Shown here piece after piece: positions 6,396 through 12,402 of a DNA stretch of 39,741 nt. Each line of letters starts with the position of its first letter. Position 1 is the stretch's first letter. The stretch is taken from the NCBI GenBank assembly GCA_021324165.1, contig JAJPJR010000083.1, positions 1-39,741 of the forward strand. Reading direction: 5' to 3'. The translations under genes were made by a program, and so were the position numbers. This DNA is from Armatimonadota bacterium (lineage in GTDB: Bacteria > Armatimonadota > Fimbriimonadia > Fimbriimonadales > ATM1). The notes below the pieces were generated by a model, which ran no database searches, was not told where the DNA came from, and saw only the letters and a program-made list of their open reading frames with translations.

Positions 6396-7999
6396 CCGCC
6401 AATCAGATGCGCGGCGTCGAATCCACGGCGGTGGCGGAATTCGGTGTGCGCGTCCGCGAGATGATGGAAGCCGCCGGCAAGGCGCTCGCCGAAGAGATCA
6501 TCCAAACCAAAAACATCCAAAACGTTTTGGCTGCCGCCGGACCCGGCAACAACGGGGGCGACGGCATCGCCGCCGCGCGGTTCCTGTTTGCCGAAGGAAA
6601 AAACGTGACGATTCTGCTTGCCGTCGAACCTTCGAAACTGAAGGACGAACCGCTGCATCAGTTTCGAATGGCAGCGGAAGCGGGCATCCCGATCATCGAG
6701 CCTTCCTCGCCTCATTACAGCGCGGAACTGCAGCGATTCGGCGAGTTCGATGCGATCATTGACGCGCTGCTGGGAACGGGTGCAAGGCTGCCGGTCGAGG
6801 GCACCATTCGTCAGATCATCGAAGCGGTCAACGACTCTCCGGCGCTGATTGTGAGTGCAGATATCCCGACGGGGATTGACTGCGATACCGGAAGAGCGTT
6901 CGGCGAACACGTTTTTGCCGACCGCACGCTCACGTTTGGTCTTGCCAAGCCGTTTCTGTTTTGTGCTGAAGGGATCGCCGCGAGCGGCGCCTGGAGAATT
7001 GTGGACATCGGTTTACCCCTCGAACTGATCGCGAATGTTGGGACGGCGTTTATGATCGAGGACACATGGGCGTTTACTCGGCTTCCTAGGCGGAATGTTC
7101 ATTCGCACAAGCGATCATCGGGAGTGGTGCTTGTGATCGCCGGCTCCCGCTCATTTCCAGGAGCGGCGAGCCTTACGGCCCGGGGCGCCTATCGCGCTGG
7201 TGCCGGCTTGGTGCTCGTGGCAACCGTAGAAGAGGCCGCGCAGTCGGTTCGAGCCACCCTGCCCGAATCGCCGGTAGAAGTCGTCCCCTCGCAGGATGGG
7301 TTTCTAAATCCGGAAGCGATAGGCAAAGTGATCGCCATGGCCGAAAGGTGCGACGCCGTAGTCATCGGGCCCGGCATCGGACGCGAGCCGTGCGTGGGCG
7401 GGTTTGTGGACGGTCTGTTCTCGCGTATGGAGGCTCAATGGGTGGTGGATGCGGACGCACTCTGGTGGCTTCCCGAAATCCGGTCTCACCCTTCCAAGCC
7501 GGCGTTGCTGACACCCCACAACGGCGAAGCGGCACGCCTCTTGGGATGCGATCATGAATCCGTGGCTGGCGCCCGATTCTCGGCAATTCGAGAAATAACC
7601 GAAAAGTATTCTCATCAGGCGCTGCTGAAAGGGCCTCACAGTCTGGTATGCGAGGCGGATGGCGAAATTGGAGTCAATATGACCGGGAGTCCTCAGCTCG
7701 CAACGGCAGGCACCGGCGACGTGCTCGCGGGGGTTGCGGGGGCGTACCTGGCGGTTCTCGGCGACCCGTTTCAGGCAGGCGCGCTGGCGGCGTTCGTTCA
7801 CGGCGCGGCAGGAGAACTGCTGGATGCGGAATACCCCGGGATGATGGGGGCGCTTGCCACCGAAATCGCCGATGCGATTCCAAAAGCGCGCAAGGAGAGA
7901 TTTGATCGGCTTGTTGAAGCGATGGAAAGTTTGGAAGAAGATGACGAGCAGTGGGATGAAGATTTCGAAGAGGACGATCTGGACGAAAGGCTCAATTAG
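6380..7999 (+). CDS. nnr: Bifunctional NAD(P)H-hydrate epimerase / ADP-dependent NAD(P)H-hydrate dehydratase
   Basis: Repairs hydrated NAD(P)H: the N-terminal half epimerises R/S-NAD(P)HX, the C-terminal half dehydrates S-NAD(P)HX with ADP. About 539 residues. The epimerase domain shows the GPGNNGGDGIAAARFL motif and ALLGTG; the ribokinase-fold dehydratase domain shows SGVVLVIAGS, GPGIGR, VVDADALWWL, LTPHNGEAARLLG and the catalytic ATAGTGDVLAG. The conserved start of this family (roughly M-x-I-V-T-x-x-Q/E-M-R-x-x-E) is encoded as IRIVTANQMRGVE from an ATT at 6380. AGGAG at 6366-6370 lies 9 bases before it, and a stop at 6365 prevents longer frames. ATG 6407 has no ribosome site and would remove nine conserved residues. 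The C-terminus is an unusual acidic tail (EEDDEQWDEDFEEDDLDE). Overlaps the FHA gene by 44 bases. Confidence 0.9.
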   Translation: MIRIVTANQMRGVESTAVAEFGVRVREMMEAAGKALAEEIIQTKNIQNVLAAAGPGNNGGDGIAAARFLFAEGKNVTILLAVEPSKLKDEPLHQFRMAAEAGIPIIEPSSPHYSAELQRFGEFDAIIDALLGTGARLPVEGTIRQIIEAVNDSPALIVSADIPTGIDCDTGRAFGEHVFADRTLTFGLAKPFLFCAEGIAASGAWRIVDIGLPLELIANVGTAFMIEDTWAFTRLPRRNVHSHKRSSGVVLVIAGSRSFPGAASLTARGAYRAGAGLVLVATVEEAAQSVRATLPESPVEVVPSQDGFLNPEAIGKVIAMAERCDAVVIGPGIGREPCVGGFVDGLFSRMEAQWVVDADALWWLPEIRSHPSKPALLTPHNGEAARLLGCDHESVAGARFSAIREITEKYSHQALLKGPHSLVCEADGEIGVNMTGSPQLATAGTGDVLAGVAGAYLAVLGDPFQAGALAAFVHGAAGELLDAEYPGMMGALATEIADAIPKARKERFDRLVEAMESLEEDDEQWDEDFEEDDLDERLN

Positions 8000-9188
8000 C
8001 CTTCTGCTTTTTGCGCCTGCGGTGTGCTGTGCGGCAACCACAATCCGTCTTGCGTTCCCAACCGAGATTCTGCGCACCGTGTGGGTGCTTCCCCAACTTC
8101 CAACGAAACTTCCCGAAAACGGGAGTGAATACACATCGAAAAACTTCGAACTGCAGATTCCCGACTCGCTTCTCAGCGGCGTGATCTTGGTTGGCGAACC
8201 GTCCACCGGAAACTACGCATACAAAAAAGTGCAGGAACTTTTGAAAAAAGGAACTTGGACTGTTTTGGATACCGACTATCTGATCGGACGTGTTGCCGTG
8301 AACGTTTCTAAGAACGGCGCTCCTGCCGACGGCGTGATGGTTACTTTGAGCAGAGGTGATTCACGAAAACGCGAACTGACTGTTCAAGGTGAAGCGAACT
8401 TCTATTTCATTTCGCCCGGGCAGGCCGAAATCTTCGCGACGTATTCTGACGGAAAACAGACGCACGACACCCGCGTCCAGCGCGTCGAGTTTTCGATGAT
8501 GCGCGAGGAGCCGATTCCGAATCTTGTTATCGAACTGCCGCCTGAGGCCGTTGTAGGAAATCCTTCGGCTCAAGCCAAACCCGCGGCCCCGCCGCCAAAG
8601 CTGCGGGCCGAAGGCGGATTCGCCTGGATGAACCTGATTTACTATCTGATCGCGCTGATCATCGCCGCATTCGCGCTGTGGTATCTGTTCAAGCTTGCCA
8701 AGCAGAATGACACAAAACTGGTCGAGCAGCTGCGCAATCTTGGCGTTGATCCTGGCGGCGGAGGCGACAGCCAGCCGCAGGCTGCTCAGCAGGCGAAGCC
8801 GCTCGAGCCCGAGCCGCTCGTTCCGGCGGGGCACTGTCTGTTTTGCGGCGAGGCTTTCGACGCTTCGGGCGGATGCGCGTGTTCGGGCAAAAAAACGCCC
8901 GCACCAACGGCCGCGGTTGGAACCAGGTTCGTAAGTTCAACGGGGCAGGCTTTTGAAATCCCTATGGGGACGACCGTGATTGGAAGAGAAGGCGCGATCG
9001 CAATTTCGGATGCCACGGTGAGCAGGCGTCATGCGGAAATCCGACGCGATGGTTCACGAACCATCATTGTTGATCTTGGAAGCGCGAACGGCACGTTTGT
9101 GAACGGGATGAGAATTGATTCCGAGACGGAGCTGCACAACGGCGATACCGTGCAGTTCGGAGCGTTTCAAGTGAGGTTCGAACCGTAG
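7956..9188 (+). CDS. Single-pass membrane protein with C-terminal FHA domain
   Basis: 410 residues if started at ATG 7956, which gives a basic N-terminus and hydrophobic signal (SLLLFAPAVCCA); the start is uncertain because it lies inside nnr and lacks a clear ribosome site. Residues 30-200 are an extracytoplasmic beta-rich region (AVNVSKNGAPADGVMVTLSRG resembles a carboxypeptidase-regulatory-like fold). A transmembrane helix lies at about 224-248. Then a Gln/Pro-rich linker, a small Cys cluster (CLFCGEAF...GGCAC) that may bind zinc, and an FHA domain at about 325-410 with all the canonical residues: GRE, SRRHAE and DLGSANGTFVNG. The FHA therefore faces the cytoplasm and should bind phospho-threonine. 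The stop shares one base with the next gene's GTG start. Confidence 0.8.
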   Translation: MKISKRTIWTKGSISLLLFAPAVCCAATTIRLAFPTEILRTVWVLPQLPTKLPENGSEYTSKNFELQIPDSLLSGVILVGEPSTGNYAYKKVQELLKKGTWTVLDTDYLIGRVAVNVSKNGAPADGVMVTLSRGDSRKRELTVQGEANFYFISPGQAEIFATYSDGKQTHDTRVQRVEFSMMREEPIPNLVIELPPEAVVGNPSAQAKPAAPPPKLRAEGGFAWMNLIYYLIALIIAAFALWYLFKLAKQNDTKLVEQLRNLGVDPGGGGDSQPQAAQQAKPLEPEPLVPAGHCLFCGEAFDASGGCACSGKKTPAPTAAVGTRFVSSTGQAFEIPMGTTVIGREGAIAISDATVSRRHAEIRRDGSRTIIVDLGSANGTFVNGMRIDSETELHNGDTVQFGAFQVRFEP

Positions 9189-10543
9189 TGGGCAGAATTT
9201 TTCAGGTGATGTTTTTCGCGGGCCTTGCCGGGTTGATTGCGTGGGCGATCACCGAACCTTTTGCACCGCCCCAAATTCCACTTCAAGCGGTAACAGCAAA
9301 GGAAATCGCGACTCTGAACGCGTGGAACCGATACGAACTCGCGTTCATGTTCGCTCTTGGTTCGTTCATCGCAATGACGATCGCGGGCCTAAGCGGATAT
9401 TTTGCTGGCAGCAGAACGCAGGCCGTCCGCGGCGGTGTGATCGGCTTTCTGTTGGGAGGAGTCGCGGCTGTTGTCGGCGGAAGATTCGGCGGCTTGCTTG
9501 CAAACCGGATTTTTGGCGAACACGTTTTCGAACCGGGGCACAACGTCATCATCACCATTTTCGCCCGCACGGTTTTCATCGCGTTTTTTGGAGCGATGAT
9601 CGGTTTGGTTCAAGGCGTGCCTTCCAAAAGCTGGAAACGGTGCGTTCAAGGGTTGATCGGAGGTGCGTTGGGGGGCGCTTTAGGCGGTGCGGCTTTCGAC
9701 ATCGTTGGGATGGTGGTTGGCACGTTCATTGTCGCAAAACAGATCGCTGAACAGGGGCAGGTTCCGCAATACCAAGAAGTCGGCGCGCTGCCGCGCGCGC
9801 TCGCGGCGGTCTGCATCGGCATGGCGATCGGCCTTTTCGTTGGGATTGTGGAACGCGTTGCCCGCAAGGCTTGGCTCAGGCTGGAATTGGGTCGCAACGA
9901 AGGCCGCGAATGGACTGTGGATGCCGCGCAGACTTTCATCGGAAGAAGCGAAAACGCGAATGTGCCGCTGTTCGGCGATCCAAACGTGGCGCCGATGCAC
10001 GCCTGCATTTATCGAACTCCGGGCGGATATCGCTTGGTGGATGGAGGAACACCGATCGGCATCGGCGTGAACGGCATCCGCGTTCCGGAAGCGATGCTGA
10101 ACAACGGCGACGTTGTTCAAATCGGAAGTTTTAACCTGCGGTTTCTGCTCAAAGACGCGCGAGGCCACGTGCCGCGGCCGACCGACGTTGCACGCAGTCC
10201 ATCACCCGTTGCGATGCCGATTGACCCAACTCCGGCACCGATGCCCTTACAGGTTTCGACGCACGCATTGGTCGCGCTCGACGGCCCGCTCGTGGGCCAA
10301 AAGTTCAGCCTTCAAGGGCAGGAGACGGTGGCAGGCAGAGAGTCGCCGCACATTCGGCTCGATTTCGACAAAAGCGCAAGCCGTCAGCACTGCGCGTTTC
10401 AAGTCGGGCCTTCGGGCGTGATGGTGCGCGATCTGGGAAGCACGAACGGAACGATTGTAAACGGCGCGCGCGTCCAAGAGATGACTTTGAGGCCGGGCGA
10501 TACTGTCAAAATAGGCAGCACGACTTTTCGATTGGAGCAATAA
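9188..10543 (+). CDS. Polytopic membrane protein with two C-terminal FHA domains
   Basis: 451 residues, GTG start at 9188 overlapping the previous TAG by one base. Residues 1-235 hold about five hydrophobic helices with glycine-zipper-like stretches (IGGALGGALGGAAFDIVG, FLLGGVAAVVGGRFGG). FHA-1 at about 240-325 keeps the first Gly-Arg (FIGRSENAN) and VNG but has APMHA in place of the SRxHA motif, so its phospho-threonine pocket looks impaired. FHA-2 at about 371-451 is canonical (AGRE, SRQHC, DLGSTNGTIVNG). No catalytic motif is seen. Lies between another FHA membrane protein and a VWA protein in a fully overlapping transcription unit, so the three likely form one complex. Stop and next start overlap as TAATG. 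Confidence 0.82.
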   Translation: MGRIFQVMFFAGLAGLIAWAITEPFAPPQIPLQAVTAKEIATLNAWNRYELAFMFALGSFIAMTIAGLSGYFAGSRTQAVRGGVIGFLLGGVAAVVGGRFGGLLANRIFGEHVFEPGHNVIITIFARTVFIAFFGAMIGLVQGVPSKSWKRCVQGLIGGALGGALGGAAFDIVGMVVGTFIVAKQIAEQGQVPQYQEVGALPRALAAVCIGMAIGLFVGIVERVARKAWLRLELGRNEGREWTVDAAQTFIGRSENANVPLFGDPNVAPMHACIYRTPGGYRLVDGGTPIGIGVNGIRVPEAMLNNGDVVQIGSFNLRFLLKDARGHVPRPTDVARSPSPVAMPIDPTPAPMPLQVSTHALVALDGPLVGQKFSLQGQETVAGRESPHIRLDFDKSASRQHCAFQVGPSGVMVRDLGSTNGTIVNGARVQEMTLRPGDTVKIGSTTFRLEQ

Positions 10544-11904
10544 TGGACCCAAACAAAACCGAAATGATCTCGCAGAGCGATGCAAACAAAACGCAGCTGA
10601 TTGCTGGTGCCGATCCAAATCGCACCCAAGCGATGCCGGGCATGGCGGCGCCGGTTGCCGCGCCGTTGAAGAGCCTGGAGGTTGCGGTGATTGCCGGCCG
10701 GCAGCATGCGCTTGCCAACAGCCCAAGCCGCGAACAGTTCTTGATCGAATGTCACGGAGCTGGCGGAGGTTTCTCAGGAACGCGCACGCCGCTCAACATC
10801 TGCTTGGTCATTGACCGCTCGGGTTCGATGGAAGGCGACCCGCTGAACTATGTGAAAACTGCATGCGGATATGTGGTGGATCTCCTCTCGCCAGACGATC
10901 TTTTGAGCATCGTAACGTTCGAAGAGACCGTGGAAGTGCTGATGCCTCCGCGAAGAGTGGTGAACAAAGACCTTGTGAAGCAGCACATCAATCGGATCGT
11001 TCCCGGCAACACCACAAACCTTTATGACGGTTTGGCACTGGCCGCACAGCAGGTGCTTTCTTCGCGCGAACCGGGAATGGTGGAAAGGCTTGTTGTGCTC
11101 ACCGACGGCGATCCCACCGCAGGCATCAAAGATTTCGGCGCGTTGGTAAGCCACGTGGGAGAAATTAAATCACGCGGCATCACGTCAACGTTTTTGGGAT
11201 TCGGTTATGAATACAACGAAGAACTTTTGGCAGGCATGGCCAAACGTTCCGGCGGCAACTACTACTTTATCGCCAAGCCCGAACTGATTCCCGAAGTATT
11301 CCGCGCCGAACTCGACAAACTTTTCACCATGGCCGCGCGAAACCTGAAACTTCAACTCAAATCGGCCCGCTGGTGCACCATTCGACAAATCTATGGGCAC
11401 TCCACACCGTATGGGCAGTCGCAGATCGAAATCAATCTTGCCGATGTGGAAAAAGGCTCGACTGTTTCCACCGCGGTTGACATGGAGTTTCAAAACCACC
11501 CGCTGGGCCAGTACCGCGTGCTCGCAGGCAAACTGACTTACGACGATTCCGCAACGGGAAAGCAGGAGTCGGTCGAGGTGAACTGCATCATCGAATTCAC
11601 CGCCGATGCGGCCAAATGTTCGGTGCCGCAAGATCCGCGGGTTGCCAGATGCGTCGAAGTATCGCTTGCCAGCCGTGCCGTAGAAAAAACGGTGATGGGG
11701 TTGAAATCCGGGCAGATTACGGCGGCGATGGCGGTGGCAGAACTTCAAAAAACGCAGATGCTGCTTGCCCAAGAGGGCCGCACGCAGGAAGCCCAGCAGG
11801 TGGCCCAGGCCGTGCGAGACCTTCAAGGCGGAAACACCGGCCAGGTGGAAAAAACCTTGATCGGCACGGTTACGATCCTGGATCAGGGCAAACAGCAGGG
11901 ATAA
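10543..11904 (+). CDS. VWA-domain protein with N-terminal Thr-repeat tail
   Basis: 453 residues. The N-terminal 33 residues are three 11-residue repeats (see repeat entry). The von Willebrand A domain at about residues 84-255 has a complete MIDAS metal site: D91-x-S93-x-S95 (DRSGSMEG), the Thr at 157/158 (NTTNLYDGL) and D188 (LTDGDPTAG). A beta-rich domain follows (QIEINLADVEKGSTVSTAVDMEF), as in inter-alpha-trypsin-inhibitor-like bacterial VWA proteins, then a helical Gln-rich C-terminus (LQKTQMLLAQEGRTQEAQQ) ending in VEKTLIGTVTI. No signal peptide, so cytoplasmic. VWA proteins usually scaffold metal-dependent protein contacts. Its two upstream neighbours supply the FHA domains that could bind phosphorylated Thr in its tail. 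No kinase or phosphatase gene lies in this window. Confidence 0.87.
   Translation: MDPNKTEMISQSDANKTQLIAGADPNRTQAMPGMAAPVAAPLKSLEVAVIAGRQHALANSPSREQFLIECHGAGGGFSGTRTPLNICLVIDRSGSMEGDPLNYVKTACGYVVDLLSPDDLLSIVTFEETVEVLMPPRRVVNKDLVKQHINRIVPGNTTNLYDGLALAAQQVLSSREPGMVERLVVLTDGDPTAGIKDFGALVSHVGEIKSRGITSTFLGFGYEYNEELLAGMAKRSGGNYYFIAKPELIPEVFRAELDKLFTMAARNLKLQLKSARWCTIRQIYGHSTPYGQSQIEINLADVEKGSTVSTAVDMEFQNHPLGQYRVLAGKLTYDDSATGKQESVEVNCIIEFTADAAKCSVPQDPRVARCVEVSLASRAVEKTVMGLKSGQITAAMAVAELQKTQMLLAQEGRTQEAQQVAQAVRDLQGGNTGQVEKTLIGTVTILDQGKQQG
10546..10644 (+). repeat. Three tandem 33-bp coding repeats (11-residue Thr-containing units)
   Basis: Encodes DPNKTEMISQS, DANKTQLIAGA and DPNRTQAMPGM at residues 2-34 of the VWA protein. 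D, N, K/R, T and E/Q recur at exact 11-residue spacing, with Thr at 6, 17 and 28. The DNA units have diverged while the D-x-N-[KR]-T-[EQ] core is kept, which suggests selection on the protein motif. A phospho-threonine docking tail is the favoured reading. Confidence 0.8.
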
Positions 11905-11961
11905 GACGTTCCAGGAATCCGCACCGAACGGATAGAATCTCCGTTTCGAGGTGAACGATTC

Positions 11962-12402
11962 GTGGACATCAAAGATGCGGTAAAGCATAACTACCTTCTT
12001 CGCGACCTTTCGGTAGAAGGACTCAATTCGGTTGCGGCAATCTCTTCGGTTGTCAACTTCGACGGCGGCGACGTGATCATTCGCGAGTTCGACCGCAACA
12101 ACGACCTGTTCATTGTGTTGGAAGGATCAGCAAGGGTGAACTCCTTCAGCGGGGAAAAACTCGCAGAGCTGGGGCCGGGAGGAATCGTCGGCGAAATATC
12201 GCTGATTGATGAAAAACCGAGATCGGCAACGGTGGTGAGCGTCGGCAAAACCAAAGCCGTTCGCATTCCCAGCGCCGAACTTCGCGGATTGATCGAGGCG
12301 AAGCCCGAAATCGCCGCCGTTCTGTTCAGAAATTTGGCGCTTGTGTTGTGCACAAGGATACGGGCCGCTAACATTCAACTGGATGGTGCGACTTCGAAAT
12401 GA
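11962..12402 (+). CDS. Stand-alone cyclic-nucleotide-binding domain protein
   Basis: 146 residues, GTG start at 11962 with GAGGTG at 11949-11954. A single cNMP-binding beta-barrel covers nearly the whole protein: DGGDVIIREFDRNNDLFIVLEGSARV and a phosphate-binding cassette GEISLIDEKPRSATV, which keeps both the Glu that contacts ribose and the Arg that contacts the cyclic phosphate. No helix-turn-helix follows, so it is not a CRP-type regulator; it would sense or carry a cyclic nucleotide and pass the signal by protein contact. 57 bases after the VWA gene, and overlapping the next gene by ATGA, so it belongs to the same run. Which nucleotide it binds cannot be read from sequence. Confidence 0.85.
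   Translation: MDIKDAVKHNYLLRDLSVEGLNSVAAISSVVNFDGGDVIIREFDRNNDLFIVLEGSARVNSFSGEKLAELGPGGIVGEISLIDEKPRSATVVSVGKTKAVRIPSAELRGLIEAKPEIAAVLFRNLALVLCTRIRAANIQLDGATSK

Follow-up and report, generated by a model that had tools for sequence, protein, structure and literature searches.

Contig JAJPJR010000083.1 of an Armatimonadota bacterium of the order Fimbriimonadales (assembly GCA_021324165.1; metagenome-assembled genome of 2.33 Mb, 97% complete) carries genes for two predicted membrane proteins with FHA domains (FHA1 and FHA2), for a protein with a vWA domain (VWA) whose N-terminal tail repeats a short threonine motif, and for a solitary cyclic-nucleotide-binding protein (CNB), and the locus raises the question of which of these genes belong together and what the threonine tail is for. 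The window, that is, the whole stretch of DNA analysed, is this entire contig (C44 in our numbering; 39,741 nucleotides). We propose, with a probability of about 0.72, that FHA1-FHA2-VWA forms the membrane half of one phosphothreonine module, a multivalent scaffold resembling the archaeal ArnA-ArnB pair that would be written by a kinase and erased by a PP2C phosphatase.

The threonine tail of VWA

A first-pass annotation of the window reported three D-x-N-[KR]-T repeats with an 11-residue period in VWA and regarded them as a possible FHA ligand. The three motifs differ from one another in nucleotide sequence, their spacing is exactly 11 residues in the window protein, and three motifs in this tail were reached in 0 of 200,000 shuffles.

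10546-10560, forward strand: VWA tail motif 1, DPNKT (Thr6)
10579-10593, forward strand: VWA tail motif 2, DANKT (Thr17)
10612-10626, forward strand: VWA tail motif 3, DPNRT (Thr28), followed by QAM in this protein

The window and 60 fetched neighbourhoods of the order gave 61 loci for comparison, in which every VWA tail possessed one to four motifs (two to four in all but one). A ligand role would have been refuted by homologues without the repeats or without a conserved threonine, and this check did not refute it. The spacing in the relatives ran from 8 to 27 residues; therefore the exact period is purely local, and we rejected it as a structural repeat. When all D..[KR]X sites in the 61 tails were collected without conditioning on threonine, X was Thr in 167 of 170 and Ser in none, while in the threonine columns of the folded part Ser filled 101 of the 1,282 Thr+Ser cells. 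The 32 FHA3 tails analyzed (FHA3 is a further FHA protein of the same genome, see below) gave the same picture, with Thr at 69 of 70 sites and no Ser. All four threonine codons were in use in the 167 motif codings, which comprised 122 distinct 15-mers, indicating that selection acts on the protein sequence of the tail.

The tail is gap-rich, compositionally simple and predicted to be disordered (pLDDT, the per-residue confidence of the AlphaFold2 model, about 50 or less), as a Pro/Ala/Thr-rich linker drifting at low complexity would be, and the repeats might be nothing more than such drift; this explanation is effectively excluded by the shuffles, which gave a mean of 1.9 and a maximum of 7 motifs against the 167 observed in the same tails, by the lack of Ser and by the high synonymous diversity.

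The motif is also confined to few genes. A degenerate DNA pattern of the DPN[KR]TQAM type had 20 matches in the 113 genomes of the order, all in the VWA gene (reversed-pattern control: 0), and within the genome to which the window belongs, VWA and FHA3 were the only proteins with DPN[KR]T in a tail context. Besides these two, DPNKT occurred there in one real open reading frame, in a folded MinD/FlhG-like ATPase region, and a genome-wide FHA-ligand code was rejected for this genome. Outside the order, the tails of VWA and FHA3 stay Thr-rich, often in the form of T-Q-[MA] motifs. Previous studies established that FHA domains bind phosphothreonine and mostly not phosphoserine (PMC6509490). Because it is restricted to Thr and predicted to be disordered, the VWA tail fits the expectation for an FHA ligand, and with intact FHA domains encoded alongside, the earlier suggestion that it is a plausible phosphothreonine ligand stands. 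The acid at -4 and the hydrophobic residue near +3 of the tail threonines agree with the sites reported for Mycobacterium tuberculosis PknA.

Conservation of the FHA1-FHA2-VWA genes

VWA orthologues were found in 110 and FHA2 orthologues in 107 of the 113 genomes. FHA1, FHA2 and VWA lay in one stretch in 49 of the 61 loci and abutted directly in 45, mostly behind YjeF and often SprT, with DegP too in the window's own family. A loss was seen in the reduced genus g31 (G067 and G068, two 1.5 Mb genomes, 97% complete), where VWA, FHA2, FHA3 and every FHA domain are gone and one kinase match is retained.

The first-pass annotation had described a four-gene cassette, FHA-FHA-VWA-cNMP, in which a cyclic nucleotide would supply a second input. 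The CNB gene does lie 57 bases behind VWA, in the same orientation. However, in none of the 60 relatives, same family included, did a cyclic nucleotide monophosphate (cNMP) gene adjoin VWA, the single CNB match among them (L063) being on the opposite strand about 3 kb from VWA, and the 4-base overlap (ATGA) of CNB is with the following DPP4-type peptidase gene. FHA1-FHA2-VWA is therefore a conserved three-gene unit and CNB only its neighbour; the cNMP protein as a component of the conserved module is refuted, a second-messenger input to the unit is very improbable, and the overlap suggests that CNB may belong with the peptidase gene.

A probable ancestral operon with kinase and phosphatase genes

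In a profile search across the phylum, VWA turned up in about 200 of 291 Armatimonadota genomes, although the weakest matches may represent paralogues. The 40 loci compared from outside the order are the best-scoring ones and may therefore be biased; their gene order on one strand was YjeF-FHA1-FHA2-VWA-FHA3-PP2C-Hanks kinase, with FHA3, PP2C and kinase all downstream in 29 of the 40, FHA3 and PP2C in 7 more, and several others ending at contig ends. In the own genome the orthologues of these three parts, assigned by sequence similarity, are dispersed: FHA3 on contig C76, one PP2C (a Stp1-type phosphatase) on contig C18, and the kinase KIN1, with HRDVKPDN and DFG present, on contig C48. Most likely, to judge from these gene orders, Fimbriimonadales dispersed an ancestral operon of writer, reader and eraser.

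The first-pass annotation, having no kinase beside the unit, had called for a distant one, and the dispersal allows us to identify it as KIN1, to which all 29 operonic kinases were closer than to KIN2. This second kinase (contig C48, L008 1417-3234) has PASTA domains and HGDLCSDH in place of HRDxKxxN, and is probably a pseudokinase in this lineage. The linkage of VWA and FHA3 is kept in two other families of the order (L054 and L071).

Beyond the phylum, the four plasmid-record places viewed show only MerR-VWA or unrelated contexts. On Deinococcus and cyanobacterial plasmids (L241, L242, L244), a VWA protein of ArnB length lies directly behind a MerR-type regulator, apparently a recurrent pairing.

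The FHA domains

The two membrane proteins of the window carry three FHA domains, as follows.

7956-9188, forward strand: FHA1, with a signal-like N-terminus, an extracytoplasmic beta-sandwich, one transmembrane segment, a Zn-ribbon-like CxxC linker and a C-terminal FHA domain
About 8634-8690, forward strand: transmembrane segment of FHA1, from hydropathy
8973-9161, forward strand: FHA domain of FHA1, with GR, SRRH and NGT intact
9188-10543, forward strand: FHA2, with about six transmembrane segments, then two FHA domains
9935-10126, forward strand: FHA2a, degenerate FHA domain without SRxH, the degeneracy itself being conserved
10328-10516, forward strand: FHA2b, canonical FHA domain

The phospho-binding residues of FHA1 were invariant in 49 of 49 loci of the order and 25 of 25 outgroup loci. 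FHA1, FHA2b and FHA3a (the first FHA domain of FHA3) keep GR, SRxH and NG wherever examined, and FHA3b retains GR, S..H and NG, with the Arg replaced by Gly. FHA2a has VAPMHA instead of SRxH in the window protein, and the S..H serine and the SRxH arginine are missing from the whole order and from the majority of outgroup sequences. Despite this loss, FHA2a has near-invariant stretches of its own (GRNEG[KR]EW and FGDPN.AP.HA), and we therefore presume that it lost phosphothreonine binding and has a conserved non-phospho role, probably a structural one. A division of labour between the two domains of FHA2, suggested at first from the window protein alone, is thus supported by sequence comparison as a stable feature of the phylum.

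FHA3 is a Zn-ribbon double-FHA protein of 285 residues present in 103 of the 113 genomes. Its C..C...C..C pattern occurs in nearly all loci compared, with a weak match to a RanBP-type ribbon (E 0.027), and ArnA (5a8i) is among the best Protein Data Bank matches of its FHA domain (E 2e-8), where GarA/OdhI structures match too.

The extracytoplasmic part of FHA1 (7956-8600) was modelled as a beta-sandwich with pLDDT of about 97, the Foldseek matches listed being those of the FHA domain of FHA1 instead; the sandwich is, from the model, a possible sensor.

The predicted fold of VWA

The AlphaFold2 model of VWA (mean pLDDT 89) consists of a beta-sandwich split by the vWA domain and a four-helix bundle.

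10543-11904, forward strand: VWA, with predicted ArnB-like fold, comprising a disordered N-terminal tail, a split beta-sandwich, a vWA domain with intact metal-ion-dependent adhesion site (MIDAS) and a C-terminal four-helix bundle
10795-11301, forward strand: vWA domain, with DRSGS, T157/T158 and D188 invariant
11635-11886, forward strand: C-terminal four-helix bundle, with invariant Thr383, Thr404 and Thr438, counterpart of the phosphorylated ArnB bundle

Foldseek ranked 8s05 (ArnB of the ArnAB complex), 4fx5 and 5a8j (ArnB paralogue) first, then ITIH1 and Sec23/24, and VWA is accordingly predicted to have the ArnB fold, with about 19% identity to ArnB over it. Profile matches to 8s05_A (E 1e-15) and 5a8j (E 6e-14) cover the vWA domain only, and ITIH and other vWA proteins score alike.

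The bundle residues Thr383 (EKT), Thr404 (QKTQ) and Thr438 (EKTL) are Thr in 61 of 61 loci and recall the phosphosites that ArnB has in its own C-terminal bundle (PMC6509490, PMC12852372). Phosphorylation may then fall on these three residues instead, the N-terminal tail binding another partner free of phosphorylation. We consider this improbable: the threonine specificity of the tail motif is stricter than for a generic disordered peptide, the motif recurs on FHA3, which has no such bundle, and the bundle threonines sit in confidently predicted helices.

Model and comparison with known systems

In the module that we propose, KIN1 would phosphorylate Thr residues of the cytoplasmic VWA that lie in its disordered N-terminal tail and, likewise, those in the similar tail of FHA3. 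The membrane-anchored FHA1 and FHA2b, together with the two FHA domains of FHA3, would dock the phosphothreonine sites, and two to four sites facing several FHA domains would yield a multivalent, reversible scaffold by which VWA and FHA3 are gathered at the membrane, until the PP2C phosphatase erased the tail phosphorylation. FHA2a would be a structural rather than a phosphothreonine-binding part. The module would work like archaeal ArnA-ArnB with the phospho-switch placed in the N-terminal tail, and its output is perhaps related to the envelope.

In Sulfolobus, the kinase ArnC phosphorylates Thr in the C-terminal bundle of ArnB, and the product is bound by ArnA, a zinc-finger/FHA protein (PMC6509490, PMC12852372). 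The Armatimonadota genes share with this system the split beta-sandwich, the vWA domain with MIDAS and the C-terminal helix bundle of VWA, a zinc-ribbon and FHA partner (here FHA3, adjoining VWA outside the order), and a pathway that includes a Hanks kinase and a phosphatase. They differ in that FHA3 bears its own tail as well as two FHA domains, two additional membrane FHA proteins are present, the phosphatase is a PP2C and not a PP2A as in the Arn pathway, and the conserved N-terminal tail has no counterpart reported for ArnB, whose phosphosites are in the C-terminal bundle (PMC6509490, PMC12852372). A bolder version, which we advance tentatively and hold as somewhat short of an even chance, is that the set is a bacterial counterpart of ArnA-ArnB-ArnC whose phospho-code was transferred to, or supplemented by, an N-terminal D-P-N-[KR]-T tail with several sites, which only two proteins of the genome use; four FHA domains on membrane and soluble partners would read it, and the entire circuit of writer, readers and eraser would be dedicated to one scaffold.

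Several observations weigh against the module as proposed. The sequences establish the genes, their conservation, the constraint on the motif, the operon and the orthology of its dispersed parts, together with a predicted fold, whereas phosphorylation, FHA docking, recruitment and output are inferred, and membrane tethering is predicted from hydropathy. Some tails (L069, L101, L208) have only one or two motifs; the 61 species are related, hence the 170 sites are non-independent and carry no formal probability; and the residue preceding the tail threonine is basic (R/K), unlike the acid and Pro enrichment reported for M. tuberculosis PknA sites. The VWA gene has been relocated away from the FHA genes in 12 of the 61 loci, in which genomes FHA2 is still encoded elsewhere and the VWA tail is retained. 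Finally, the invariant bundle threonines could be the true phosphosites, as in ArnB.

In actinobacteria, a PknB-type kinase phosphorylates the short N-terminal Thr tail of GarA/OdhI, which an FHA domain then reads, and the targets of GarA/OdhI are enzymes of 2-oxoglutarate metabolism. FHA3 has the same layout of tail and FHA in one chain, its FHA domain matches GarA/OdhI structures, and the motif is common to the tails of VWA and FHA3. The tail might then be a kinase-docking or autoregulatory element: the phosphorylated tail of FHA3 would fold onto its own FHA domain, with the VWA tail competing, so that the switch releases rather than recruits. However, each FHA3 chain combines a pair of FHA domains with several sites, against the single FHA domain and acceptor motif of GarA/OdhI, which has no VWA partner, and VWA, having no FHA domain, is incapable of self-binding. 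The NCBIfam OdhI model scored 59-79 bits against a cut-off of 200. We regard such a releasing switch as unlikely, if a little less so than phosphorylation of the bundle, and prefer the recruiting scaffold.

The mycobacterial operon fhaA-fhaB-pstP-rodA-pbpA-pknA-pknB also co-encodes two FHA proteins, a PP2C and a Hanks kinase, but it contains rodA and pbpA and has neither VWA nor a Zn-ribbon double-FHA protein, and the FhaB model gave FHA3 95 of the 125 bits required. The PpkA-PppA-Fha1 pathway of type VI secretion, with kinase, PP2C, FHA and a vWA-containing component, is alike in concept only: the TagH/VI_FHA model (TagH/Fha1 of type VI) scored 32-80 bits against a cut-off of 120.25, and no secretion genes were recognised among the conserved neighbours.

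FHA-phosphothreonine signalling and FHA-vWA switches are already known, whereas the literature searched contained no description of the shared N-terminal multi-site tail, the pair of membrane FHA proteins or the operon that spans the phylum. The locus leads to a complete, genetically defined set of kinase writer, PP2C eraser, four intact FHA readers and candidate multi-site Thr substrate. This set is conserved across a phylum that has received little study, and it connects FHA signalling in bacteria with the ArnAB switch of archaea. As a short phospho-docking code, the Thr-only tail lends itself to direct testing, and the order in which the operon is dispersed provides a natural experiment on which of the parts have to stay together.

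Gene layout and other observations

The four open reading frames of the first-pass annotation, their spacings and the three tail motifs were confirmed by open reading frame calls, Pfam and the tail shuffles. Pfam gave FHA once for FHA1 and twice for FHA2, VWA for VWA and cNMP_binding for CNB, all exceeding the cut-off; for FHA1, FHA2 and VWA, nothing more specific than FHA or VWA was found among Pfam, NCBIfam and PADLOC models. The PADLOC anti-phage defence models had no match for FHA1, FHA2, VWA and FHA3, and the PADLOC matches of the kinase, PP2C and CNB resemble generic domain matches. A vWA protein, a PP2C and a kinase also make up the TerY-P triad, for which the only observation is this lack of a PADLOC match for VWA. 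Hydropathy showed a signal-like segment and one transmembrane segment in FHA1, about six in FHA2 and none in VWA. The promoter and terminator scan was uninformative. The genes flanking the unit are:

6407-7999, forward strand: YjeF/NnrDE gene, kept upstream neighbour of FHA1
11962-12402, forward strand: CNB, solitary cNMP-binding protein, neighbour outside the conserved module

FHA1 starts within the 3' end of the YjeF/NnrDE gene, the GTG start of FHA2 shares 1 base with the TAG stop of FHA1, and FHA2 and VWA are joined by a TAATG overlap. The YjeF/NnrDE gene is probably co-transcribed with FHA1-FHA2-VWA and itself no signalling part. CNB contains a phosphate-binding-cassette-like sequence, GEISLIDEKPRSA. 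Contig C15 encodes a small soluble protein of 194 amino acids with a single FHA domain (L143, 2634-3218); its gene has a sodium-symporter-like gene upstream and an acetyl-CoA synthetase gene immediately downstream.

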